From assembly GCA_001821295.1 (NCBI GenBank), contig MHSK01000028.1, positions 224-36,919 on the forward strand: a DNA stretch of 36,696 nucleotides. The letters are read 5' to 3'. Positions 12,137 through 30,490 of the stretch are shown here, piece by piece (position 1 is the first letter of the stretch; the number at the start of each line of letters is the position of its first letter). The DNA comes from Candidatus Taylorbacteria bacterium RIFCSPLOWO2_12_FULL_43_20 (GTDB taxonomy: Bacteria; Patescibacteriota; Minisyncoccia; Phycocordibacterales; HO2-43-120). The position numbers were made by a program, and so were the translations under genes. The notes beneath the pieces were generated by a model, which searched no databases, was not told the DNA's origin, and worked only from the letters and a program-made list of their open reading frames with translations.

Positions 12137-12240
12137 TTGCGTAAGATGAGTGTCCTATATATAATGGACAGCAAAGAATGTTTTTCTATCAGTCGCGGGT
12201 GATCAAGGACATCAGATTATAAAGGACATGTTAAAGGACA
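12137..12240 (+). promoter_or_regulatory. Promoter with GGACA operator array
   Basis: -35 TTGCGT (12137-12142), 17-base spacer, -10 TATAAT (12160-12165). The -10 is enclosed by the inverted pair TGTCC (12151-12155) and GGACA (12166-12170). Downstream in the leader come CAAGGACA (12204) and two AAAGGACA copies at 12221 and 12233, spaced 12 bases. Because the next gene codes for a C-terminal HTH-like protein, I infer an operator set for autoregulation. Confidence 0.65.
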
Positions 12241-12241
12241 C

Positions 12242-13009
12242 ATGGATCATAATAAGACGGAGCAAGACGTAAAAAAATACGATATCCCCAATGATCTAGG
12301 CGCCGTTAATGTTTTTAAAGACGACGGCATTTTGGTTTTCTTGTACAAAAAAACGGAGAAAATTATAACAGCTACACATCTCATTACTGACTCTCTAAAG
12401 GACGAAGAGCCGATAAGACGAGACCTGAGGCAGAAGAGCTGTGCCGCTCTGTCCAATATACTCGCATATAACTCCAGAAGAAATTATGACTCCGCTCGAT
12501 CTGTAGCGGGCTTGCTTTTGGAGCTTGTTTCTTTGTACGAAATCGGAGAGAATTCCGGTTTAATTTCTCATATGAATTGTTCGGTAATGAAAGCGCAGAT
12601 AGCTATAGTGATGGAAGAGTTCAATCGCCGACTTTTAAACTACTCCATACCATTGAGGGAGGATATATTTGATGTGGGAACAACGGGCCGTCGTCTTTCT
12701 GTTTTTATGGATGCGAATAAAGAAGAGGTACCTGAGGGTAAAGGACATTCTAAAGGACACGAGATGTCCTTTAGAAATAAAACTCATAAAGGACATAATG
12801 AGCAGGACATGACTCTAAAGGACAGAAAGGAAAAAATAGTTTCAATTGTTCGGAAAATGTCTGTAGCCGGCATAAAGGATATAAGCGGCCAAATAAAAGG
12901 ATGCAGTGAGAAGACAATACAACGAGATCTTATTGCTTTGGTAAATGAGGGGGTGCTGAAAAAAATAGGGGAAAAGAGGTGGAGTAGGTATCAGTATATG
13001 AGGGGGTAA
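12242..13009 (+). CDS. Putative HTH regulator with repeat-encoded KGH linker
   Basis: 255 residues. The N-terminal 165 residues form a helical domain (four-helix look: NDLGAVNVFKDDG..., QKSCAALSNILAYNSRR..., SVAGLLLELVSLYEIGENSG, MKAQIAIVMEEFNRRLLNYS). A linker at about 163-195 (EGKGHSKGHEMSFRN...KGHNEQ) follows, then a DeoR-like winged-helix at about 197-250 (RKEKIVSIVRKMSVAGIKDISGQIKGCSEKTIQRDLIALVNEGVLKKIGEKRWSRY), with TIQRDLIALV matching the DeoR recognition helix pattern. The linker is encoded by AAAGGACA octamers identical to those in its own promoter (12740, 12752, 12788, 12817 and an inverted one at 12765). I infer a DNA-binding regulator, perhaps autoregulatory; the ligand or target set is unknown. 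Confidence 0.75.
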   Translation: MDHNKTEQDVKKYDIPNDLGAVNVFKDDGILVFLYKKTEKIITATHLITDSLKDEEPIRRDLRQKSCAALSNILAYNSRRNYDSARSVAGLLLELVSLYEIGENSGLISHMNCSVMKAQIAIVMEEFNRRLLNYSIPLREDIFDVGTTGRRLSVFMDANKEEVPEGKGHSKGHEMSFRNKTHKGHNEQDMTLKDRKEKIVSIVRKMSVAGIKDISGQIKGCSEKTIQRDLIALVNEGVLKKIGEKRWSRYQYMRG

Positions 13010-13325
13010 GCACGAAGCACGAAATCCTGGTTCGACCCCTTCGACTTCGCTCAGGGTAAAAGGCTCACCATCCTGAAGAATTTGAAGGAGAAATTCCAAA
13101 AAATTGTAAATTCAAAAAAGAAGAAAAAAGAAGAGAAGAAGACACCCCATCTTTTAGATAAGCACGAAGTACGAAGCGCGAAATTCGAAAAAATAATACC
13201 AATATCCCCCTTCGCTCTAAGAAGAGCTTCGGTGGGACACAGTCGGCACTTCCCCTCTAAAGAGGGGAAGAGGAAGAGGGGAGGGGGACAAGAAATTTCT
13301 AATTTCTATAGGGCTTGCGCGTTTG
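13010..13325. repeat. Repeat-filled region after the HTH gene
   Basis: AAGCACGAAGCACGAAATCC (13008-13028), CACCATCCTGAAGAATTTGAAGGAG (13067-13091, in pieces), AAGCACGAAGTACGAAGCGC (13159-13178), and CTTCCCCTCTAAAGAGGGGA (13249-13268). An unbroken frame at 13082-13396 is made of repeat DNA and is not a credible gene. Confidence 0.65.
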
Positions 13326-13401
13326 ATGTCATTCCCGCGAAGGCGGGAATCCAGAAGATGGATTATAGCCCTAGATTCCCGCTTTCGCAGGAATGACATC
13401 C
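13326..13401. repeat. Paired TCATTCCCGCG inverted-repeat element
   Basis: TCATTCCCGCGAAGGCGGGA at 13329 and its inverted partner TTCCCGCTTTCGCAGGAATG near 13376-13395, with about 27 bases between; second member of the family at 9646. Confidence 0.85.
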
Positions 13402-13564
13402 CTTTGTGTGCGAGGGGTTACAGGAAGAGGTATTGATAAAGGGCAGATATGTGTCATATTGTTGACTTAAAGTCATCAGTTGTGTAAGATTAAGCTCAGA
13501 TTAACGTCTTCGCTAGCAGATTCAACTAGGGCTGTTTTTTGTGTTTATACCCTGAATTTTTCGG

Positions 13565-13609
13565 TTATCCACAGTTTTATTGCGGAACCTGAACATATTA
13601 AAGTATAAT
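13565..13609 (+). promoter_or_regulatory. DnaA-box-like site plus strong promoter
   Basis: TTATCCACA (13565-13573), a perfect DnaA-box consensus, precedes -35 TTGCGG (13580-13585), an 18-base spacer and -10 TATAAT (13604-13609). The word GTTATCCACAGTTTT is also found at 19613, again upstream of a surface-protein promoter. Transcription would start near 13616 and read through about 600 bases to the surface protein gene at 14224. Confidence 0.6.
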
Positions 13610-13615
13610 TACAGC

Positions 13616-14200
13616 CACGGTTTGAAAATTAATCAGCATAGACGGAACATTGACAATATAATAGTTGAGTGAAAATACGGAATTTTCGCAATTCAGTTAC
13701 GGTCAGTTAAAGCTAAGTGTTTCAGCATAAAATACACAAACTAATTCATTAGCTCGTGTCGACCCAGTGCCTTCTAAGAATCGGAAGGGGGAGGGGAAGA
13801 AATTTCTAATTTCTAATATCTAATTTCTAATGAGAAGAAAGAAGAAATCCTCCGGTTCATTCAGAATGAACCACCTCCTTTATGAAAGGAGGAAGGAGAG
13901 GGGAAATCCTCCGGCCTCTGGCCACCTCCTTTATGAAAGGAGGAAAAAGAAAGCAAAGAAGGGGATCGGGTTCTTGGAAGGTGCTGGGAAATGAGTGATG
14001 AGTAGGTTAATTAATTAGCAGTCGGAAATGTCTGGACGAGATGACACGCGGCGAGTTACTCGCTCTCGGAGTCAGGTGCCAGATGTTTCAAAGACAGGCA
14101 AGAGCTTATGTCGATATCAGAGTTCTTGATTTGTCAGAAAGTTTGAGGATGGTCTTCTCGAAATTATTATTATTAAAATGAGAAGCCAAAAAATTATTAA
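13616..14200 (+). ncRNA. Possible structured RNA or long 5' leader with repeats on a stem tip
   Basis: No reading frame is convincing here. Bases 13763-13780 (CCCAGTGCCTTCTAAGAA) pair with 13971-13988 (TTCTTGGAAGGTGCTGGG) in an 18-bp helix with three G-U pairs and no mismatch; two more pairs extend it inward. The helix encloses about 190 bases made only of dispersed repeats. Flanks hold CGTGTC/GACACG (13755-13760 with 14043-14048 region) and hairpin GCGAG-TTA-CTCGC (about 14052-14064). This matches the way repeats sit on helix tips in the 23S gene. I cannot match it to RNase P, tmRNA, 6S or SRP RNA. It may be the leader of the surface protein mRNA. Confidence 0.45.
13790..13945. repeat. AATTTCTAAT tandem words and two CCTCC hairpin repeats
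   Basis: GAAATTTCTAATTTCTAATA-type tandem words (13798-13831) followed by two hairpin units (13841-13896, 13899-13943). The first has a longer tip stem GGTTCATTC/GAATGAACC, the second GGCC/GGCC. They lie within the helix closed by 13763-13780 and 13971-13988. Confidence 0.8.
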
Positions 14201-14223
14201 AAAATATGTTACAAAATTTTAAA

Positions 14224-16305
14224 ATGAAAAAAATCATTGCAGGATTCTTGGGAATCTCAATGACATTGTCCTTAGTGGGAAGCGTTGCTTCTTCAGCTGA
14301 TGCCCAAATGGCAGGCGGAGCAACTTTCACTAGAGACCTTACAATAGGTTCAACAGGAGACGACGTAGTAGCTCTCCAGAGCATACTCGTAGCCGGAGGT
14401 TACCTTACAATTCCAGCCGGAGTTGCTCCTGGATACTTCGGAGGGCTTACAAGAGCGGCTCTTGCCAAATGGCAGGCGGCCATGAACATCAGCCCGGCGG
14501 TGGGATATTTTGGTCCTATCTCCAGAGCGGCTATAGGAGGCACACCAGCTGCTCCGATAGCTACAGTTCCTGGATGCCCCGCGGGAGCATTGTTCAATTA
14601 CTTGACAGGAGCTCCTTGTACAGCAGCGCCAGCGGCGCCTGTAGCGGGATGCCCAGCCGGAGCTATCTACAACTACCTAACAGGTGGATTGTGTAGCGCG
14701 ACCGGTACAGAATCACCTTCACCTTCGCCAAGCACGGGTCTTGAGGGAGGAGCAGGATCAGTTGATAGCTATACGCTTGTATCTGGTCTTAATAACGAGA
14801 AAGTCGGCGAAGGATCCAATGATGTATCAGTTGCGGGTATTGACGTTGAGGTTGATGAAGGGTCAGACATAATGATTACAGCTGTAAAACTTACCTTTAA
14901 TGAAGGTACAGCGGGAAGCGACTTTGACAAGTATGCTGACGATGTGTCAATTTGGGTTAACGGCACCGAGTATGCTAGAGTTGATGGCGATAAATTCAAC
15001 TCTGACAATAACTGGATCAGCACTCTTTCTCTGGATAGCGGCGCTATAATCAAAGCGGGCACTACCGAGGATATTGTTGTGAAAGTTTCGGGCATCTCAA
15101 ACCTTGATTCAAACGATGCGGCTGATACTTGGACTGTAGATTTCTCAAGCGTTAGATTCCAAGACGCTCAAGGGGCTACTATATCCGAGGATCCGGGCAC
15201 AGCCACGCGAACATTCTCATTTGAGACATTTGCGACGGCCGTTAACGCGGAGTTGAAGATTGTGGCTGAAGATAAGGACGTGAATGATCCTCATATCATT
15301 GACATTCATGCTACAGACGACACAGATGATGTTCCGGTATTGTCCTTTACCATGGAGGCAAAGGGCAGTTCTGACCTGAAGATTGAGAAATTGGCCGCTT
15401 CTACCACAGTTACAGGCGCTACAAACGTTGATGCTTTAGTTAAAGAAATCACTCTTTGGATAGAAGGTAAGGAAATCGGTTCCGGCACCGCAATCCAAGA
15501 TGCTGATGGCGCAAGTGTGGGAACAGTGGAGGACTATCTCTTTGACGACATTGACTATACGATAAGCGCGGGAGATAAAGTTGAAGCAGAGATTAGAGTT
15601 TCATTTAATTCTATTGCTGATACTGGTGTAACGGCTGGAGATACTCTTCAAGTTGATATCAATGAAGGACAGACTGACCAGTCTGCGTTCTGGAGTGTTA
15701 AAGATGAAACTGGAGAAAGATTGCTTGACGCTGATATCACCGGTACTGTTACCGGAGGCGCTCATGCCATATACGACATTGGGCTTAACTTGAAGTTCGT
15801 AAGCGCTACAGCCAAGACTGACGGATCCGCAGCCGGTTCCGCGACAGGAGATGACACTGGTATTTACACCATTGTCTTTGACGCAACATCATTCGGAGAC
15901 GATGTCTTCATTGATGCTGACGTATTGGCTACTACAAGCGCGGACACGGTTACCACAGGTGGAGACGGTATACTATGGGCGACTACGACAAACTCAACAG
16001 CTACAGGAGGTGTTGGCTCTACGACAGTATTGACACTTCTCGAAGCTGAAGGGTCGGAAAGTTCATCGAGCACCGCTCCTGACGTAGAGACAGCGGGTTC
16101 ACTGTCGTTTGGTGTTCCGGAAGGAGAGACCAGACGCTTTACTTTGAAGGTTAATATCGGCCCAGCCGGTATTGATCAGCAAACAGGTGTCAGAATAAGA
16201 GGTATTAACTGGGATACTGACAGCGGCGATGCTCACGCCAATCTATACAACTTTAATCTTGGAAATTTCAAAACAGAGACAATATCTCTGCTCCAACAGA
16301 CATAG
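14224..16305 (+). CDS. Large secreted surface protein with peptidoglycan-binding domain
   Basis: 693 residues from MKKIIAGFLG (an in-frame ATG at 14206 is six codons earlier; I choose 14224 because it begins a clean signal peptide: two Lys, hydrophobic core GFLGISMTLSLVGSVAS, cut near SADAQ). A PG-binding unit spans about 38-105 (TFTRDLTIGSTGDDVVALQSILVAGGYL...GYFGGLTRAALAKWQ). Two cysteine motifs follow, GCPAGALFNYLTGAPC and GCPAGAIYNYLTGGLC, then a Ser/Pro linker and about 500 residues of Thr/Asp/Val-rich beta domains. No enzymatic motif. The probable long leader and the strong terminator after it suggest a separately regulated, abundant envelope or S-layer-like protein; this last point is inference. 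Confidence 0.85.
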   Translation: MKKIIAGFLGISMTLSLVGSVASSADAQMAGGATFTRDLTIGSTGDDVVALQSILVAGGYLTIPAGVAPGYFGGLTRAALAKWQAAMNISPAVGYFGPISRAAIGGTPAAPIATVPGCPAGALFNYLTGAPCTAAPAAPVAGCPAGAIYNYLTGGLCSATGTESPSPSPSTGLEGGAGSVDSYTLVSGLNNEKVGEGSNDVSVAGIDVEVDEGSDIMITAVKLTFNEGTAGSDFDKYADDVSIWVNGTEYARVDGDKFNSDNNWISTLSLDSGAIIKAGTTEDIVVKVSGISNLDSNDAADTWTVDFSSVRFQDAQGATISEDPGTATRTFSFETFATAVNAELKIVAEDKDVNDPHIIDIHATDDTDDVPVLSFTMEAKGSSDLKIEKLAASTTVTGATNVDALVKEITLWIEGKEIGSGTAIQDADGASVGTVEDYLFDDIDYTISAGDKVEAEIRVSFNSIADTGVTAGDTLQVDINEGQTDQSAFWSVKDETGERLLDADITGTVTGGAHAIYDIGLNLKFVSATAKTDGSAAGSATGDDTGIYTIVFDATSFGDDVFIDADVLATTSADTVTTGGDGILWATTTNSTATGGVGSTTVLTLLEAEGSESSSSTAPDVETAGSLSFGVPEGETRRFTLKVNIGPAGIDQQTGVRIRGINWDTDSGDAHANLYNFNLGNFKTETISLLQQT

Positions 16306-19412: not shown

Positions 19413-19638
19413 CAATCGCGTCTGCTTTTGTAAATGCGATCGCGGCAACCACGATGCCGCTCATGAGAATATCCTATCCTCTATCTTTTGAAATAAATCG
19501 GACGCTGATTGATGAGTTATCCACGCATATCCCCTCACGGGGTAACTAGATCATTCATGGCTTTGAATATGGGTCAATAATTGCAATTACCCCATCAAGG
19601 GATACACGTGGAGTTATCCACAGTTTTCAAGTTATTCC
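19413..19638. promoter_or_regulatory. Large inverted repeat flanked by DnaA-box-like sites
   Basis: DnaA-box-like TTATCCACG (19517-19525) and TTATCCACA (19614-19622) flank a pair of arms: TCCACGCATATCCCC...GGGGTAA (about 19520-19545) and the inverse of TCCACGTGTATCCC...GGGGTAA (about 19586-19612). The centre (about 41 bases) is AT-rich. No gene seen in 19413-19737. The region could be a complex operator for the gene at 19738 or an origin-like element; dnaA itself is not in the window. Confidence 0.45.
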
Positions 19639-19667
19639 ATGTCAAATGATTTAATTAGTTGTATAAT
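19639..19667 (+). promoter_or_regulatory. Promoter for the secreted repeat protein
   Basis: -35-like ATGTCA (19639-19644), 17-base spacer, -10 TATAAT (19662-19667); the DnaA-box word GTTATCCACAGTTTT lies 17 bases upstream, the same arrangement as at 13564. Confidence 0.6.
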
Positions 19668-19737
19668 TATTATTGTTCTATGTCGTCGAAAGACATAACT
19701 ATTATTAAAAGATATATATTAAAATAAGAAATAAAAA

Positions 19738-20367
19738 ATGAAAAAAACTTTTTTTTCAATAATGTTATCAGTTGGTGTGGCTGTGTTGTTTATTGCCGTG
19801 TCGGTCGGCGCGGTGACAACCATCAGCACTAATATAAGCACTGGGGGCACTTTGAGTGTTACTGGGGCTAGCACGCTTACTGGGTTGGCCACTTTAGGTC
19901 ACGCGTCCACGTCGGCTATCTCTACTACCGGCACGTTGATGATTAATGGCTACGCTACAACCACCAACACCACAGGGGCTTTCGCGAGTGAGGGTGCGTT
20001 AACGGTGGGAGGGAATTCTACGCTTGCGTCGGTGGATATTGGAGGGGCTTATTCCAGTGGTGGAAGTGGCGCGACGATTTCAGCCGCGGGAGCGCTCTCA
20101 ATCAACGGCGATTTGGCCGTTAATGGATATGCGACTACAACTGCGACTACAGGCACTTTTGGCACTGAAGGGAAAGTCGGAGCAGGCACCTCCACTCCGG
20201 CGACTGAATTGGCGGCTTCCGGCGCGGCCACAACTACGTTATATCTTCATTCAACAGGGACAAAAGTGGGGGGGTGCATACAAATAGAGGGCGCGAATGA
20301 CACAGTATTCCGCGCCTATGCCACTACTTCCGGTCCTCTAGTGATTGAGGCGGGCACCTGCAAATAA
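19738..20367 (+). CDS. Secreted low-complexity Thr/Ala/Gly-rich repeat protein
   Basis: 209 residues. Signal peptide MKKTFFSIMLSVGVAVLFIAVSVGAV. The mature part consists of short degenerate repeats with T-L-x-V-x-G-x-S/A-T-L (ISTNISTGGTLSVTGASTLTG, GALTVGGNSTLASVDIGGAY, GALSINGDLAVNGYATTT), as in beta-solenoid or trimeric fibre shafts. A terminal segment, GTKVGGCIQIEGANDTVFRAYATTSGPLVIEAGTCK, has two cysteines that could close a small cap. Only low charge and no catalytic residues. Similar proteins are frequent at the surface of Parcubacteria; function, perhaps adhesion, is inference. Confidence 0.8.
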   Translation: MKKTFFSIMLSVGVAVLFIAVSVGAVTTISTNISTGGTLSVTGASTLTGLATLGHASTSAISTTGTLMINGYATTTNTTGAFASEGALTVGGNSTLASVDIGGAYSSGGSGATISAAGALSINGDLAVNGYATTTATTGTFGTEGKVGAGTSTPATELAASGAATTTLYLHSTGTKVGGCIQIEGANDTVFRAYATTSGPLVIEAGTCK

Positions 20368-24391: not shown

Positions 24392-24840
24392 ATGGTTTTG
24401 TTTTATCTGTGATCTCGGTTGTCTCCATGGCTTGAGAGTGAAGGAGATAGCCGAGAATACGGATGAACTGAAAAGGAAGAAATGACTGTCTCTTTGACAG
24501 ATGAATTCCATCACAACAGCTTTTCTTGCCGCTAAATCTAGCGGAAGAGGGGTCTTTATTGTTGGAGGTGGGCTGACCTTTATGTTTATTCATGAAGGTC
24601 GTCTGTCCGTTGGTATGACGGATGGAAGATTACCGCGCTTTCTGAAGTAAGGCGGTAATTACAGGTAAAATACATCGCCGGTAACGGCGATTGGATTGCC
24701 GTTTCGCCAATATGGGCGGGATGGAAATCTGTTCCCACCGCATTAAGTTGGGTGGGGTGATTTAATTTGATTGGCCAGGTCATCGGATCAATCCGTAGCC
24801 CGGCAAGTCAAAGTATTCGATCAGTGGTGATCGAATATAA
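24392..24840 (+). ncRNA. Hairpin-rich leader of the 23S rRNA
   Basis: No gene and no 16S sequence. A chain of at least seven hairpins: CTCGGTTGTCTCC/GGAGATAGCCGAG (24415-24455), CTGTC/GACAG (24487-24500), CCGCTA/TAGCGG (24530-24545), GACCTT/AAGGTC (24576-24601), ATTACCGC/GGCGGTAAT (24628-24660), ATCGCC/GGCGAT (24673-24690), ATTCGATCA/TGATCGAAT (24814-24835). The last one abuts the processing stem of the 23S. It could be a pre-rRNA leader with processing or antitermination signals. Confidence 0.6.
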
Positions 24841-24996
24841 ATTTCCTAATAGGAAATTAAGAGCATATGGTGGATGCCTTGACTAGAAGAGGCGATGAAG
24901 GACGTAGCAAAGCTGCGATAAGCTCCGGGGAGGCGCCAAGCAACCTTTGATCCGGAGATCTCCGAATGGGGAAACCCCTCGTGCATTGCACGAGAC

Positions 24997-25120
24997 GTGC
25001 GAAGCACAAGGAACAATTGACAATTAACTTTTGACAATTGACCGCAGAATTTTTCGAAGCAAAATTCTGCCTAGTCACATGTCAATTGTCACAGGTCAAA
25101 TGTCTCTTGCGCTTCGCGCG
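24997..25120 (+). repeat. 23S insertion A (helix 9/10 region), CAATTGAC family
   Basis: Starts GTGCGAAGCACAAGG, ends CTTGCGCTTCGCGCG. The 124 bases form a long foldback: GACAATTGACC against GTCAATTGTC and CGCAGAATTTTTC against CAAAATTCTGC. It replaces the tip next to the CTCGTGC-ATT-GCACGAG hairpin. Nearly the same as B, E and F. Confidence 0.9.
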
Positions 25121-25220
25121 AGCATACCCAGGGAAGTAAAACATTTCAGTACCTGGAGGAAAAGAGACTAATAAGAATTCCGTTAATAGCGGCGAGCGAA
25201 AGCGGAAGAGCCCAAACCAC

Positions 25221-25344
25221 GTGCGAAGCACAAGGAACAATTGACAATTAACTTTTGACAATTGACCGCAGAATTTTGCGAATCAAAATTCTGCCTAGTC
25301 ACATGTCAATTGTCACAGGTCAAATGTCTCTTGCGCTTCGCGCG
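25221..25344 (+). repeat. 23S insertion B (about E. coli 270-350 region), CAATTGAC family
   Basis: Second 124-base copy of the same foldback, differing from copy A by only a few bases. It replaces a variable helix between the GTAGCGGCGAGCGA block and the GTAACAGCCCCGTA block. Confidence 0.9.
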
Positions 25345-25558
25345 CTGGGGTTGTAAGACAGGAACGTAGTATTTATATTAGAGAAGTTACAAAATGTTGT
25401 GTTAACCGAACAAGCTGGAAAGCTTGGCCCAAGGAGGTAACAGCCCCGTAGGTGAAAACGCAATATCTTCTTTGTTCCTGTTCTTGAGTACTTCGAGACA
25501 CGAATAGCTCGGAGGAATCCGCCGGAACTAACCGGCAAGGCTAAATACTCTTCTAGAT

Positions 25559-25601
<43 letters not shown>

Positions 25602-25682
25602 GGAGAGGGGAGTGAAATAGACCTGAAACCATATGCTTACAAGGAGTCAGAGCCGTCGCATCACATGGGATGTGATGCGACG

Positions 25683-25810
25683 GAAATTCGAAATTCGAAA
25701 TTCGAAATCCGAAAAAATTCAAAATATTAAATTCAAAACAAGATTTTTTCTTTTTTGTTTTTTATATTTTCTTTATTTTTTCGTATTTCGTGCTTCGTGC
25801 TCTGAATTTC
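25683..25810 (+). repeat. 23S insertion C (helix 25), GCACGAA family
   Basis: Arms AAATTCGAAATTCGAAATTC and the inverse TTTCGTGCTTCGTGCTCTGA fold over an AT-rich middle. It sits on helix 25, a site where other bacteria carry intervening sequences. The family is the intergenic one seen at 3857, 13158 and 22678. Confidence 0.85.
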
Positions 25811-25896
25811 CGTTGCATCGCGTTTTGCGTGATGAGACGGTCATGGCGTGCCTATTGAAGAATGAGCCAACGAGTTAATTTGCACTGCTTGCTTAA

Positions 25897-25996
25897 CCCC
25901 GCCCTTTTGATTAACATTTCATTTTTTGGGATGAATTTGGAAAATTAGGTGAACAAATAATGAGCACCTTAAATTTTGTTGATCAAAGAGGCGGGG
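25897..25996 (+). other. 23S insertion in the helix 28-29 region, no family match
   Basis: CCCCGCCCTTTTGATTAACA (25897-25916) pairs with TGTTGATCAAAGAGGCGGGG (25977-25996) almost completely. Inside, AAATTAGGTG and CACCTTAAATTT form a second stem. About 100 bases longer than the corresponding E. coli part; no copy seen elsewhere in the window. Confidence 0.65.
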
Positions 25997-26430
25997 CGAG
26001 GCCTAGCGAAAGCGAGTCTGAACAGGGCGTTTGTAGTGCAAATTAGACCCGAAGCCAAGTGAGCTTGCCATGAGCAGGGTGAACTCTGATGAAAATCAGA
26101 GGGAGGCCCGAACCGTTTAGCCGTGCAATACTATCGGATGACTTGTGGTAAGAAGTGAAAAGCTAATCGAACTTGGTAATAGCTGGTTCTCTCCGAAATA
26201 GCTTTTGGGCTAGCGTCGCGTGTTCCTTATAGGGGTAGAGCACTGGAAGAATTCGACAGGTCGAAAGATCGCGAATTCTATCAAACTCCGAATACTATAA
26301 GTCATAACGCGGCAGTTAGACCGTGGGGGCTAAGCTCCACTGGTCAAAAAGGAAACAGCCTAGATCTCTATTTAAGGTCCCTAAATCTACACTAAGTGCA
26401 AGTAAGGTGGTGAAATTTCTTCAACAATGA

Positions 26431-26462
<32 letters not shown>

Positions 26463-26544
26463 GAAAGCGTAACAGCTCACTCATCAAGAGATTTTGCGCC
26501 GAAGATAATCGGGGCTCAAGTGTAGTACCGAAACTGAGGGTACC

Positions 26545-26812
26545 GTGCAAAGCACAGAAATCCGAAGCACGAAGCACGAAATACGAAAAATATCTAAATT
26601 TTAAATTCAAAATTTTAAACAATTATTTTTGTTTGACATTTTGTTATTTCGGCTAGCGAGGAGCGTGTGAATGATTCTTATCATTCACGACGTCCGAGCG
26701 AAGACGAAACAAAGGTTCAATACCTCGAGGATTGCCCCGAGGAACCTTTATTTGAATTTTGGATTTATTTCGAATTTCGATATTCGAATTTCGAATTTCC
26801 GCGCTTTGCGCG
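26545..26812 (+). repeat. 23S insertion D (helix 45), GCACGAA family, composite
   Basis: 268 bases bounded by GTGCAAAGCAC (26545-26555) and GCGCTTTGCGCGG (26801-26813). The outer parts are GCACGAA/TTCGAATTTCGAATTTC arms; nested inside is a 100-base hairpin-rich segment (GTGAATGATTCTTATCATTCAC; AAAGGTTC...GAACCTTT). Helix 45 is a known intervening-sequence site in Salmonella. Confidence 0.85.
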
Positions 26813-27171
26813 GTGCGGTAGGAGAGTATTCGCATCTTGCTGTGAAGCCAAAGGGGTGACCCATGGTGGAGCGTTGCGAAGTAAGAATGTTGGCACAAGT
26901 AACCACAATGGAGGTGAGAACCCTCCACGCCGAAAGACCAAGGTTTCCTTGGCGATGACAATCAGCCAAGGGTTAGTCGGTCCTAAGGGGATGGCGAAAG
27001 CCGAACCCGATGGATATATGGTTAATATTCCATAACTCTTATGCAAAATGATGGGAGGACGGGGTGTAGTATGTCTTGCGTATTATTGGATTTACGTTCG
27101 TGCTCTGAGGAAGATTTCCAGGAAAATCCGGAAGTCTGCTTTTAATGGCATTTCCAAGGAGAGCGAGAACT

Positions 27172-27296
27172 GTGCAAAGCACAAGGAACAATTGACAATA
27201 AACATCTGACAATTGACCGCAGAATTTTGCAGAGCAAAATTCTGCCAAGTCAAAAGTTAAATGTTCACGGGTCAAATGTCTCTTGCGCTTTGCGCA
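27172..27296 (+). repeat. 23S insertion E (helix 58-59 region), CAATTGAC family
   Basis: Third copy of the 124-base foldback, with boundary GTGCAAAGCAC / TTGCGCTTTGCGCA. Base changes in both boundary strands keep the terminal stem. Confidence 0.9.
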
Positions 27297-27464
27297 GAAT
27301 AGGACAAAGCACGCCTCCAAGAAAAATCTCTAAGTTTATTTGCATGAGATCCGTACCGCAAACCGACACAGGTGGTCAGCTCGAGTAGAGTAAGGCGAAC
27401 GAGTGAAATTTCCCCAAGGAACTCGGCAAAAAAGCAGCCGTAACTTCGGAATAAGGCTTGCCTT

Positions 27465-27587
27465 GTGCGAAGCACAAGGAACAATTGACACTTAACAATG
27501 GACAATTGACCGCAGAATTTTGCAGAGCAAAATTCTGCCAAGTCAAAAGTTTAATGTCACAGGTCAAATGTCTCTTGCGCTTTGCAT
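27465..27587 (+). repeat. 23S insertion F (helix 63), CAATTGAC family
   Basis: Fourth copy of the foldback, GTGCGAAGCACAAGG to TCTTGCGCTTTGCA, on helix 63, also a known intervening-sequence site. Confidence 0.9.
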
Positions 27588-27771
27588 GAGGCTGCAACAA
27601 AAGTATCTCTGGCAACTGTTTATCAAAAACACAGCTCCCTGCGAACTCGTAAGAGGATGTATAGGGGGTGACACTTGACCAATGCCCGAAGGTCAAACGT
27701 TGTCGGTTCACATCATTCTGCACTTCATTATTGGAGGATAGAATGGTGTGAGCTGAACGATGTAAGCCCGG

Positions 27772-27806
<35 letters not shown>

Positions 27807-28115
27807 TCCCACTTCGTGCTTGCACGAAGTGGGAAGGACTGGGACTGTTATAGTTCTGTTAATGCAATAAAATGTAAAAACATTTTGATAAACTAAATAA
27901 ACAATAATCAGTACACTATTCAAAGCTGCCTCGCTCTGTAGTAATACAAAGCAGGTCCGCACCATGGCTATATGCGGGGAAGTCTGTAATTTGCAGATCA
28001 TCCGCAGGGAAGTTCTAAAATTTTTTTTAGAACCCCTCAGAGACCACACGCCATGCTCCAGCTGGTTTGTACCAGCTGGATGAAGATATGGTCCTTCGTT
28101 AAAGAGGAAACGAAA
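27807..28115 (+). ncRNA. Group I intron at 23S position 1931
   Basis: Interrupts CCTAAGGT|AGCGAAATTCC, immediately after U1931 in E. coli numbering. Core elements R (CAGAGACCACACG, 28038-28050) and S (AAGATATGGTCC, 28083-28094) pair as P7 (GACCA/TGGTC). The 5' part has a perfect TTCCCACTTCGTGC / GCACGAAGTGGGAA hairpin. No ORF. The 3' boundary is uncertain by a few bases because a terminal G is not exactly where the exon match implies. The core differs from the other three introns, so it is of separate origin. Confidence 0.8.
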
Positions 28116-28135
28116 AGCGAAATTCCTTGTCGGGT

Positions 28136-28863
28136 AGGAACTGCCCAACTTGATAGTGATATCAAGAAAAAACTGGCTTATAACGGTGGAGTCCTCGCTG
28201 GAGCGCTTGAGGAGACGCAATGAAGGCAGGAGAATACCGTGGGAAGTCGTACTGAGCTTGTTTTACAAGCGAACGTATTGACCCCGTATCGACTTCGGTC
28301 GCCACTGAATGTTGGCGACCGAGATAGTAGATGATATAATCACTACTATAATACGCCAGCTCTAATGAATAGAAATCTTGAAGAGTATATTTCGGGATAT
28401 GTAGATGGAGAAGGATGTTTTTCCCTATCATTTTCCCGAAGAAATAAAATGCTTGTAGGGTGGGAGACTAAACCTAGTTTCTCTGTAAGCCAAAACCAAG
28501 AGAGAGCGGAAGTGCTCTATCTTATTCAAAAAAGATTTGGTTGTGGGTTTATCAGACGAGACTATAGTGACAAAACTCTCAAATATGAAGTAAGAAGTCT
28601 GGATGATCTTTTAAAAAAGATTATTCCTCATTTCGTTACAAACCCGCTTCTTTCATCCAAGCAAGATGATTTTCTAAAGTTTAGAAAAATATGTTTGATG
28701 ATGAGTAAAGAGAAACACAAGCAGTCAAAAGGATTAAAAGAAATCATGAAAATTGCTTTCACGATGAATCCTGGAGGCAAAAGAAAATATACTCAAGCAA
28801 TGATGATATGTTCATTAGATGAAGATATAGTCAATACTGATGGAAACATCAGATAGGAATATG
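28136..28863 (+). ncRNA. Group I intron at 23S position 1951, with homing endonuclease gene
   Basis: Breaks GTCGGGT|AAGTTCCGAC after U1951. The guide GCCC (28143-28146) pairs with exon GGGT giving the U-G pair at the splice site, and GGAACT (28137-28142) pairs with 3' exon AGTTCC as P10. The intron ends in G at 28863. Core words TAACGGTGGA (28181), AATACCGTGGGAAG (28233) and GATGAAGATATAGTC (28818) are shared with the introns at 2500 and 2656. The endonuclease gene occupies the region between R and S and overlaps S. Confidence 0.92.
28365..28856 (+). CDS. LAGLIDADG homing endonuclease in the 23S intron
   Basis: 163 residues. One LAGLIDADG-type motif, ISGYVDGEGCFSLSF (about residues 9-23), places it in the single-motif class that works as a homodimer, cutting the intronless allele to spread its intron by double-strand-break repair. 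Further family marks are PSFSVSQNQERAEVLYLIQKRFGCG and the later DDFLKFRKICLMM helix. The start ATG at 28365 follows the intron R element by a few bases. The C-terminal LDEDIVNTDG is encoded by the intron S element, so protein and ribozyme sequence overlap. It appears intact, so the intron may still be mobile. Confidence 0.9.
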   Translation: MNRNLEEYISGYVDGEGCFSLSFSRRNKMLVGWETKPSFSVSQNQERAEVLYLIQKRFGCGFIRRDYSDKTLKYEVRSLDDLLKKIIPHFVTNPLLSSKQDDFLKFRKICLMMSKEKHKQSKGLKEIMKIAFTMNPGGKRKYTQAMMICSLDEDIVNTDGNIR

Positions 28864-29413
28864 AAGTTCCGACGCGCACGAATAGTGTAATGACTGGAGA
28901 ACTGTCTCGGGGAATAGCTCGGTGAAAATACAATACCGGTGAAGATGCCGGTTACCTGCAGTTAGACGAAAAGACCCCAGAAGCTTTACTGCAACTTGGT
29001 ATTGAGGATACGTTTTTAATGCGTAGCGTAGGTGGGAGGATTTGAAGTTTACCTTTCGGGGTAGATGGATCCGACAGTGAAATACCACTCTTTAAAAATG
29101 TGTTTTCTAACTTCGTCGGAAAAAACGGCGAAAGACAGTATCTGGTGGGCAGTTTTAGTGGGGCGCTATCCTCCTAAAAAGTAACGGAGGAGTTTATTAA
29201 GGTCAGCTAGGCGCGAATGGAAACCGTGCCGATAGTGTAATGGCATAAGCTGGCTTAACTGTGAGACGTACTTGTCAAACAGATGCGAAAGCAGAACATA
29301 GTGAACCGACCATACGCATTAGACGCGGTGGAAGATTATCGGACAAAAGCTACTCTGGGGATAACAGGCTAGTTCCGCCTAAGAGTCCATATCGACGGCG
29401 GAGTTCGGCACCT

Positions 29414-29777
29414 TAACACATTGGGGTGCCATGCGAGAGATTGCATTAGCTATTTTAATGTATGTGAGACATGAACCAACATACATTAAAAGAAAAAATT
29501 GGCTTATAACGGTGGACTCCATGTAACGTGGATAATACCGTGGGAACCTAGCATTATTATCGATAGATAATGGTATGAAATAATGCTGGAGGCAGTAATA
29601 TTTATGAGACTATGATAATTTGTTCATAAATTATACTGGACCCGTAGAGACTTGAGCATTAATGCTCGGAGTTTCCTTATAATAAGGAAGCTAAGACGCC
29701 AACTCCTAATTTATCGGAAGATAAAAAGGATGAAGATATAGTCCAAACCTTCTAGTGATAGAAGAAATAAATGACAG
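29414..29777 (+). ncRNA. Group I intron at 23S position 2500 (peptidyl transferase centre)
   Basis: Splits GGCACCT|CGATGTCGG after U2500. Guide GGGTGCC (29424-29430) pairs with exon GGCACCT over 7 bp with a U-G pair at the splice site. Core words TTATAACGGTGGA, AATACCGTGGGAA, AAGACGCCAAC and GATGAAGATATAGTC (29729-29743) are present; the intron ends in G at 29777. It has no ORF; 364 bases. Confidence 0.93.
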
Positions 29778-29933
29778 CGATGTCGGCTCAACTTATCCTG
29801 GGGCTGGAGAAGGTCCCAAGGGTTTGGCTGTTCGCCAATTAAAAAGTTACGTGAGCTGGGTTCAGACCGTCGCAAGACAGGTTGGTCTCCTATCTACTGC
29901 AGGCGTTGATTCTTGAGAAGATTTGCTCCTAGT

Positions 29934-30490
29934 AAAATATTGCTACTTCAGAAAGTAATTTCTGATGACAATGTGGCTAATAACGGTGGAGGCTTCCATT
30001 TGCTGCAAAATGTCGGTCCGATATTTGCAGAATAAAACAAATTGAAGTTAATACCGTGGGAAGTTGTGAGTTTCGTTGAAGTTCTTTATGTTGGGTGTAG
30101 CTTAAAAAATAATAACCTTGTGTTGGTGAGATAGGCTTGCGCGTAGGCCTACTGAGCTGGCACTTTGGAAGAGGTTATAGCACCGGATCATTAATCCAAA
30201 CGTCAAGGTTCGAGTCCTTGCACCCAACGCCAATTTTGGGCAAATAGTTTTATTTGCCCCTTCAACGAAACTCGCAACCCCGTAACGACTGAGTCCTTCG
30301 GGACGAGATGAGAGATGCCTTAGTGCTAGACATTAAGATCACACTTTCATAATACGCCAACATCCTAAGTTTGTACGATGTATCGTACAAAACGGATGAA
30401 GATATAGTCTATGCCTCTGGTGACAGAGGATTCGTTCTGCGATTGTCCGCGTTAAGTCTGCGGCAGTCTGCGGTTTACGAAGTAAACATG
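29934..30490 (+). ncRNA. Group I intron at 23S position 2656 (sarcin-ricin loop)
   Basis: Splits GCTCCTAGT|ACGAGAGGACC after U2656, inside the sarcin-ricin loop. GCTA (29942-29945) can pair with exon TAGT with a U-G splice pair. Core words AATAACGGTGGA, AATACCGTGGGAAG, ATAATACGCCA and GATGAAGATATAGTC (30395-30409) match the introns at 1951 and 2500; the intron ends in G at 30490. A peripheral stem (GAGTTTCGTTGAAG, 30068-30081, with CTTCAACGAAACTC, 30260-30273) carries a tRNA-like sequence. Confidence 0.9.
30090..30232 (+). tRNA. tRNA-like cassette (degenerate or interrupted) inside the 2656 intron
   Basis: Acceptor GTTGGGTG (30090-30097) pairs with CACCCAAC (30221-30228), followed by GCCA. 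A perfect T arm CAAGG-TTCGAGT-CCTTG lies at 30204-30220. A D-arm pattern (GCTTAA ... GGTTATAGC) is split by about 68 extra bases, closed by ATAACCT/AGGTTAT (30112-30118 with 30172-30178). The following GGATCATTAATCC resembles an Asn-type anticodon arm, but the lower stem is mismatched and the base before the anticodon is C, not U. Alternatively TTTGGA/TCCAAA pairs, giving a different body. Whether it is a functional tRNA is doubtful; acceptor, T arm and CCA are clear. Confidence 0.55.

Follow-up and report, generated by a model that had tools for sequence, protein, structure and literature searches.

A structured leader RNA with a boxA-like motif, possibly Nus-controlled, precedes an S-layer-like surface-protein gene in an order of Paceibacteria and has an apical repeat insertion in one lineage

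We describe a structured 5' leader in a 36,696-nucleotide stretch of the Candidatus Taylorbacteria bacterium RIFCSPLOWO2_12_FULL_43_20 genome (contig MHSK01000028.1; hereafter, "the window"). The leader precedes the gene for a dominant S-layer-like surface protein, and we consider it probable that it is a new boxA-bearing leader of that protein's mRNA, controlled by Nus factors. Computation reveals a conserved promoter, conserved synteny, a covarying core hairpin, a boxA-like motif and an insertion in an apical loop; transcription of the leader and the direction of its regulation are predictions made from the DNA. A first-pass annotation had proposed a structured RNA at 13616-14200. That reading largely holds, and the parts that are conserved in relatives (the TTATCCACA box, the boxA-like motif and the GUCGA hairpin) were absent from it.

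The leader lies on the forward strand between an HTH (DeoR-like) regulator gene (12242-13009; Pfam HTH_DeoR, E=1e-4) and the surface protein gene (14206-16305), whose product has a signal peptide, a PG_binding_1 domain (Pfam, E=3.6e-6) and a long extracellular part. The annotation's remark that no open reading frame occurs before 14224 is borne out: the forward strand has none of at least 80 amino acids between 13397 and 14205, and the surface gene starts at 14206 or 14224. A blastn comparison of the 3' half of the leader with 148 relatives returned only chance matches, the best of them at E 7e-4 over 28 nt, since it is structure and short motifs, and not sequence, that the leader RNA keeps. 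We therefore located relatives by synteny, using the HTH gene as the anchor. Homologs of this gene occur in 338 of 397 genomes of the order, mostly as a single copy per genome, under the names Candidatus Taylorbacteria, Zambryskibacteria, Nomurabacteria, Kaiserbacteria, Wolfebacteria and unnamed Parcubacteria; where a genome was present in both of our collections, identical rows were counted once. Within this one Paceibacteria (Parcubacteria) order, whose members are very small and for the most part uncultured bacteria, the same layout recurs: the HTH gene is followed by the TTATCCACA box with a -35/-10 promoter, a 5' hairpin, the motif GAACTTTGACAAYTNAATA, the GUCGA hairpin, a hairpin near the start codon whose loop contains AUUAUUA and, finally, the gene for a surface protein with a signal peptide and a peptidoglycan-binding domain. 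Such a protein was found in 10 of the 10 cases read, and nine such proteins from relatives resemble one another. The sister species (G001) has a gene order identical to that of the window, with the homologous RNA present.

Several side observations concern these genes and genomes. Seven of the nine AAAGGACA sites in the window fall at 12221-12824, just 5' of and inside the HTH coding region, in direct and inverted orientations, and similar sites occur within the HTH homologs of relatives; they are possibly an operator within the regulator's own gene. The start region of a surface-protein paralog in the same genome (G000:C17) displays, by eye, no leader features. In the sister species, an apparent intein carrying a homing endonuclease splits an FtsK homolog (L077, 2680-6255) in frame, beyond its Walker A region.

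As a whole, the leader RNA (13616-14205) is predicted to fold far more stably than expected. For 13616-14200 (585 nt) the fold has z = -7.1, with 0 of 100 shuffles equally stable, and 75 of 80 homologous leaders have z < -2 (mean -5.2). Rfam at the gathering threshold gave no match in 13400-14300 or in ten relatives, in keeping with the annotation's suggestion of a possibly new structured RNA. Known RNA families are excluded by the Rfam, ARAGORN and whole-genome family searches: ARAGORN reported no tmRNA in the window, RF00023 did not match at the leader, and the genome's only RF00010 match is on another contig (C7:10952-11491), which rejects RNase P RNA as the leader's identity. Our literature search found no report of this leader, nor of a boxA in a surface-layer gene. 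In the genome as a whole, tmRNA (RF00023) has no match over the cut-off, and the RNase P RNA match is 540 nt and the 16S match 2536 nt long, which suggests inserts in several structural RNAs of the organism. The 23S gene in the window (24847-29936) extends over ~5.1 kb and contains a group I intron (27848-28110) as well as further inserts.

The annotation had left open whether the RNA is a leader or a separate transcript. A small RNA that is processed or terminated before the surface gene and acts in trans would fit the strong promoter of its own and the compact conserved fold. We nevertheless find this improbable and are nearly certain that the region forms the 5' leader of the mRNA for the surface protein, because the same gene type lies directly 3' in nearly all relatives, no intrinsic terminator was found on the forward strand in 13000-14400, and a second hairpin recurs near the start codon. 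This hairpin lies ~20-30 nt before the start codon and has a long A/U loop with AUUAUUA on stems of quite different sequence; of 80 leaders, 33 have it at a score above the 95% shuffle threshold, against 4 expected. The copy in the window (AAATTATTATTATTAAAA, 14151-14187) scores 15.5, below that threshold. Another hairpin is found near the transcription start, where the first 70 nt of the leaders have a mean z of -2.2. A ligand-sensing riboswitch would also present itself as a long conserved leader with a conserved loop. However, the region has neither a conserved multi-stem core, nor a terminator/antiterminator pair on the forward strand, nor an Rfam match, and we regard this identity as exceedingly improbable.

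Upstream of the leader, the promoter that the annotation had placed at 13580-13609 is present and is kept in relatives, which share its layout. It consists of a -35 element TTGCGG (13580-13585), an 18-nt spacer and a -10 element TATAAT (13604-13609), from which transcription is expected to start near 13616. Just 5' of the -35 is the box TTATCCACA (13565-13573), which is the DnaA-box consensus. Among 93 distinct homologous regions 3' of the HTH gene, 84 contain an exact copy, against 0.2 expected from shuffling; in 73 of the 93 an exact TATAAT follows the box at 29-34 nt (0 expected), and 65 regions have a TTG-type -35 between the two. DnaA may bind here, and the promoter suggests that the replication initiator may time the synthesis of the coat; another protein may instead read the box. 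A replication origin at the leader was considered and rejected, with one exact DnaA box nearby and no GC-skew reversal there; near-matches to the DnaA box number 13 in the window, against 8.7 expected. A second TTATCCACA followed by TATAAT occurs at 19614-19740, 5' of the gene for a short surface-like protein (19738-20367). The short leader there has no boxA and contains a small hairpin, AUGUC-GUCGAAA-GACAU, whose loop includes GUCGA; its fold is no better than that of shuffles (z -0.4).

The conserved core of the leader is a hairpin whose left arm (CTAATTCATTAGCTCGT, 13741-13757) and right arm (ATGAGTGATGAGTAG, 13991-14005) enclose the near-invariant loop sequence GUCGA (13758-13762). A stem capped by a GUCGA-containing loop is present in all recognizable leaders, and the loop is GUCGAUA in the compact members. 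A MAFFT alignment that mixed both loop classes gave a poor consensus, because class 1 is without two 3'-side bases, and separating the classes solved this. When one loop class is aligned in a register fixed by the 7-nt loop, 95.5% of the 110 pair cells are paired, versus 30-59% after sliding the register, and 8 of the 11 pairs show double changes. The other class, to which the window is similar, has 88.7% of cells paired among 12 sequences (39-54% slid) and 90.2% among 36 distinct sequences found by the model (41-53% slid). The latter set contains 118 double-changed cells versus 34+-6 in shuffles, a count reached by 0 of 500 shuffles; the alignment, having been fitted to the structure, favours it, and related sequences inflate the counts. 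The core stem covaries strongly, and the covariation in related genomes that the annotation had named as a check is thus present as extensive compensatory change.

Searches with covariance models point to the same location. Across 297 whole genomes, and without any synteny information, one match was found in each of 36 genomes, and 29 of 30 inspected loci lie 0.2-0.7 kb downstream of the HTH gene. The window itself is missed by the model because of its 226-nt insert; its membership is based on synteny, the promoter, boxA, the loop and the flanking arms. A class-wide model search gave no match in 285 genomes, a sample without a known positive searched by a model blind to members with inserts and to class 1, and this result is therefore no proof of absence outside the order. 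Against the rRNA leaders scanned, the GUCGA hairpin model found no match, with one weak off-target hit at E=0.14, an E-value that is rough, as are all those from our home-made models. Two observations on the loop itself may be of use. The 7-nt loop GUCGAUA resembles a T-loop (UUCRA). In class-1 leaders L103, L122, L136 and L145, the UAGCGYR that follows GUCGA is complementary to a UGCGYUA 49-94 nt downstream, close to the start codon in several cases; this possible alternative pairing could act as a switch.

The 20-bp helix that had first drawn attention to the region is exactly as annotated. Positions 13763-13782 (CCCAGTGCCTTCTAAGAATC) pair with 13969-13988 (GGTTCTTGGAAGGTGCTGGG) in 20 contiguous pairs (16 Watson-Crick and 4 G-U, 0 mismatches). 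The longest unbroken helices in 100 dinucleotide shuffles of 13616-14200 had 12.5 pairs on average and 17 at most. It does close a repeat block, as had been noted: 13783-13968 is composed of an ATTTCTA tandem and two copies of a 51-nt unit, AATCCTCCGG...CCACCTCCTTTATGAAAGGAGG. The helix begins at the base right after GUCGA, and its 3' arm ends at 13988, followed by AA and then by the conserved right arm AUGAG (13991). At this same point, 26 of 63 loops have just UA or UG and the others have extra sequence, with a clean hairpin in L117, L126, L149 and L161 and, by eye, also in L164, L180 and L181; the sister species has its own, different long insert at the identical position. The helix and repeats (13763-13988) are an insertion specific to this lineage in the apical loop of the GUCGA hairpin, and not the conserved core, because relatives hold UA/UG, other sequence or hairpins at that point. 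The conservation that the annotation had looked for in the helix arms is thus absent even in the sister species and is found in the GUCGA hairpin that flanks them. The leader thereby pinpoints a place at which a structured RNA can accommodate large insertions of repeats, an exact position in the apical loop.

The annotation had also taken the G-U pairs as a sign of pairing in RNA rather than a DNA inverted repeat. For the core this stands: a hairpin with a single, syntenic occurrence per genome, an invariant loop and a covarying stem that includes G-U pairs contradicts the alternative of inverted repeats at the DNA level (mobile palindromic elements). For the inserted repeats, a DNA-level reading is possible: the 51-nt unit has further occurrences in the window, its core CCACCTCCTTTATGAAAGGAGG occurs 8 times there with none expected, and other inserts in relatives also look repetitive. 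As an account of the stems as a whole, we consider it very improbable.

Between the promoter and the core hairpin is the boxA-like element CATTGACAATATAATA (13648-13663, forward strand). boxA normally stands in front of ribosomal RNA and, in rRNA leaders, is bound by NusB and ribosomal protein S10 (NusE). The consensus of the element is G-W-W-CTTTGACAAYTNAATA, and a motif with at most 1 mismatch to CTTTGACAAYTNAATA is present in 57 of 80 leaders (71%) versus 1.6% of shuffled sequences, by a consensus that was partly shaped by the leaders themselves. The motif is positioned about 40-150 nt after the -10, its density in leaders is 60-fold above that in the rest of the same loci, and 56 of the 57 motifs have a G at -3 (three bases before the C). 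A similar motif precedes 16S in G045, G016, G082 and G001; G050, G014, G067/G175 and the window's own genome have it less clearly. Shuffle tests of 10 rRNA leaders support the motif in 3 to 5 of them, with at most 1/100 for G045, G016 and G082, 5/100 for G001 and 8/100 for G050. In the own genome, the 16S leader has a weak candidate, GGACTTTGACATTGATC, at -407, which is not the best match in a consensus scan, and a similar sequence, CTCTTTGACAGATGAATT (24490-24507), occurs in the spacer before the 23S of the window. We judge it likely that the TTTGACA motif is a boxA. Reading its TTGACA as a second, internal promoter was rejected, as no consistent -10 follows it and the motif resembles boxA.

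A different reading is that the leader is purely a cis element for message stability and translation, one that binds a protein or protects the 5' end, in which TTTGACA is no boxA but an unpaired site for a protein, or else half of a pseudoknot. The hairpins near the transcription start and the start codon would suit such a role, and UUGACA can make 6 pairs (one G-U) with the loop sequence UGUCGA. By eye, however, TTGAAA variants occur alongside an unchanged GUCGA loop with no compensating change seen, and co-variation gives this pseudoknot no support. The motif is also much longer than its complementary portion and is met again in several rRNA leaders. We regard the purely cis-acting leader as the less likely account, though a serious one.

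The Nus-controlled leader would operate as follows. Transcription would start near 13616, at a promoter with a DnaA-box sequence beside the -35, and run into the surface gene. The nascent leader would offer its boxA to NusB and S10, by analogy with rRNA leaders, and the Nus complex would ride RNA polymerase through the long, hairpin-rich untranslated leader; the GUCGA and start-proximal hairpins would then fold and govern how stable the message is and how it is translated. The insertion of the 20-bp helix and repeats is tolerated by the apical loop of the GUCGA hairpin. NusB is encoded in all 14 genomes of the order that were checked, the own genome included, and Rho (TIGR00767) was undetected in each of them, with only weak matches far below the cut-off that are probably other ATPases. 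Since Rho is undetected, the role of the complex would therefore lie in processivity, RNA folding or translational control, and protection from Rho is an unlikely purpose. Whether control of the leader is Nus-dependent at all seems to us evenly poised, arguing from the known systems. Its likeliest purpose is to express the surface coat at a high level and in step with ribosome synthesis and growth; alternatively, the complex may tune translation, as in suhB.

To our knowledge, gene regulation in the candidate-phyla-radiation bacteria is almost wholly uncharted, and they gain here a regulatory RNA of testable anatomy that recurs across an order, 5' of a major gene for the cell surface. That the leader of a surface-protein mRNA contains a boxA-like element, in genomes with no Rho detected, bears directly on roles of boxA and Nus factors besides protection against Rho. 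More tentatively, an order of Rho-less, host-dependent bacteria may run its main surface protein like an rRNA operon, coupling coat, replication and ribosomes through the leader. If true, this would be an rRNA-like system comprising a DnaA-box promoter, a boxA-loaded polymerase and a dedicated structured leader.

The leader is like boxA-containing rRNA leaders in having a boxA-like sequence that follows a 5' hairpin within a long, folded and untranslated region, in organisms that have NusB and, in several cases, a similar motif 5' of 16S; it differs in preceding a protein-coding gene and in that Rho is undetected. S-layer protein mRNAs in other bacteria also have long untranslated leaders, possibly as stabilizers, and the likeness to them, drawn by description alone, is that of a long untranslated leader on a surface-layer mRNA; we know of no boxA or TTATCCACA promoter in those leaders. 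With DnaA-regulated promoters (reviewed in PMC8203912), the likeness is a consensus DnaA box adjoining the promoter, whereas the target here would be a surface protein and DnaA binding is putative. The published gamma-proteobacterial boxA consensus, GYTCTTTAANA, likewise has the G at -3 seen in the leaders' motif (PMC5725501). In the suhB mRNA leader of Enterobacteriaceae, described in the same study, the E. coli boxA lies near the start codon and represses expression (PMC5725501); our leader is much longer and structured, and differs in gene, phylum and the failure to find Rho. What the two have in common is a boxA, or boxA-like element, in the 5' UTR of an mRNA, and a proposed control of a protein-coding gene by the Nus complex.
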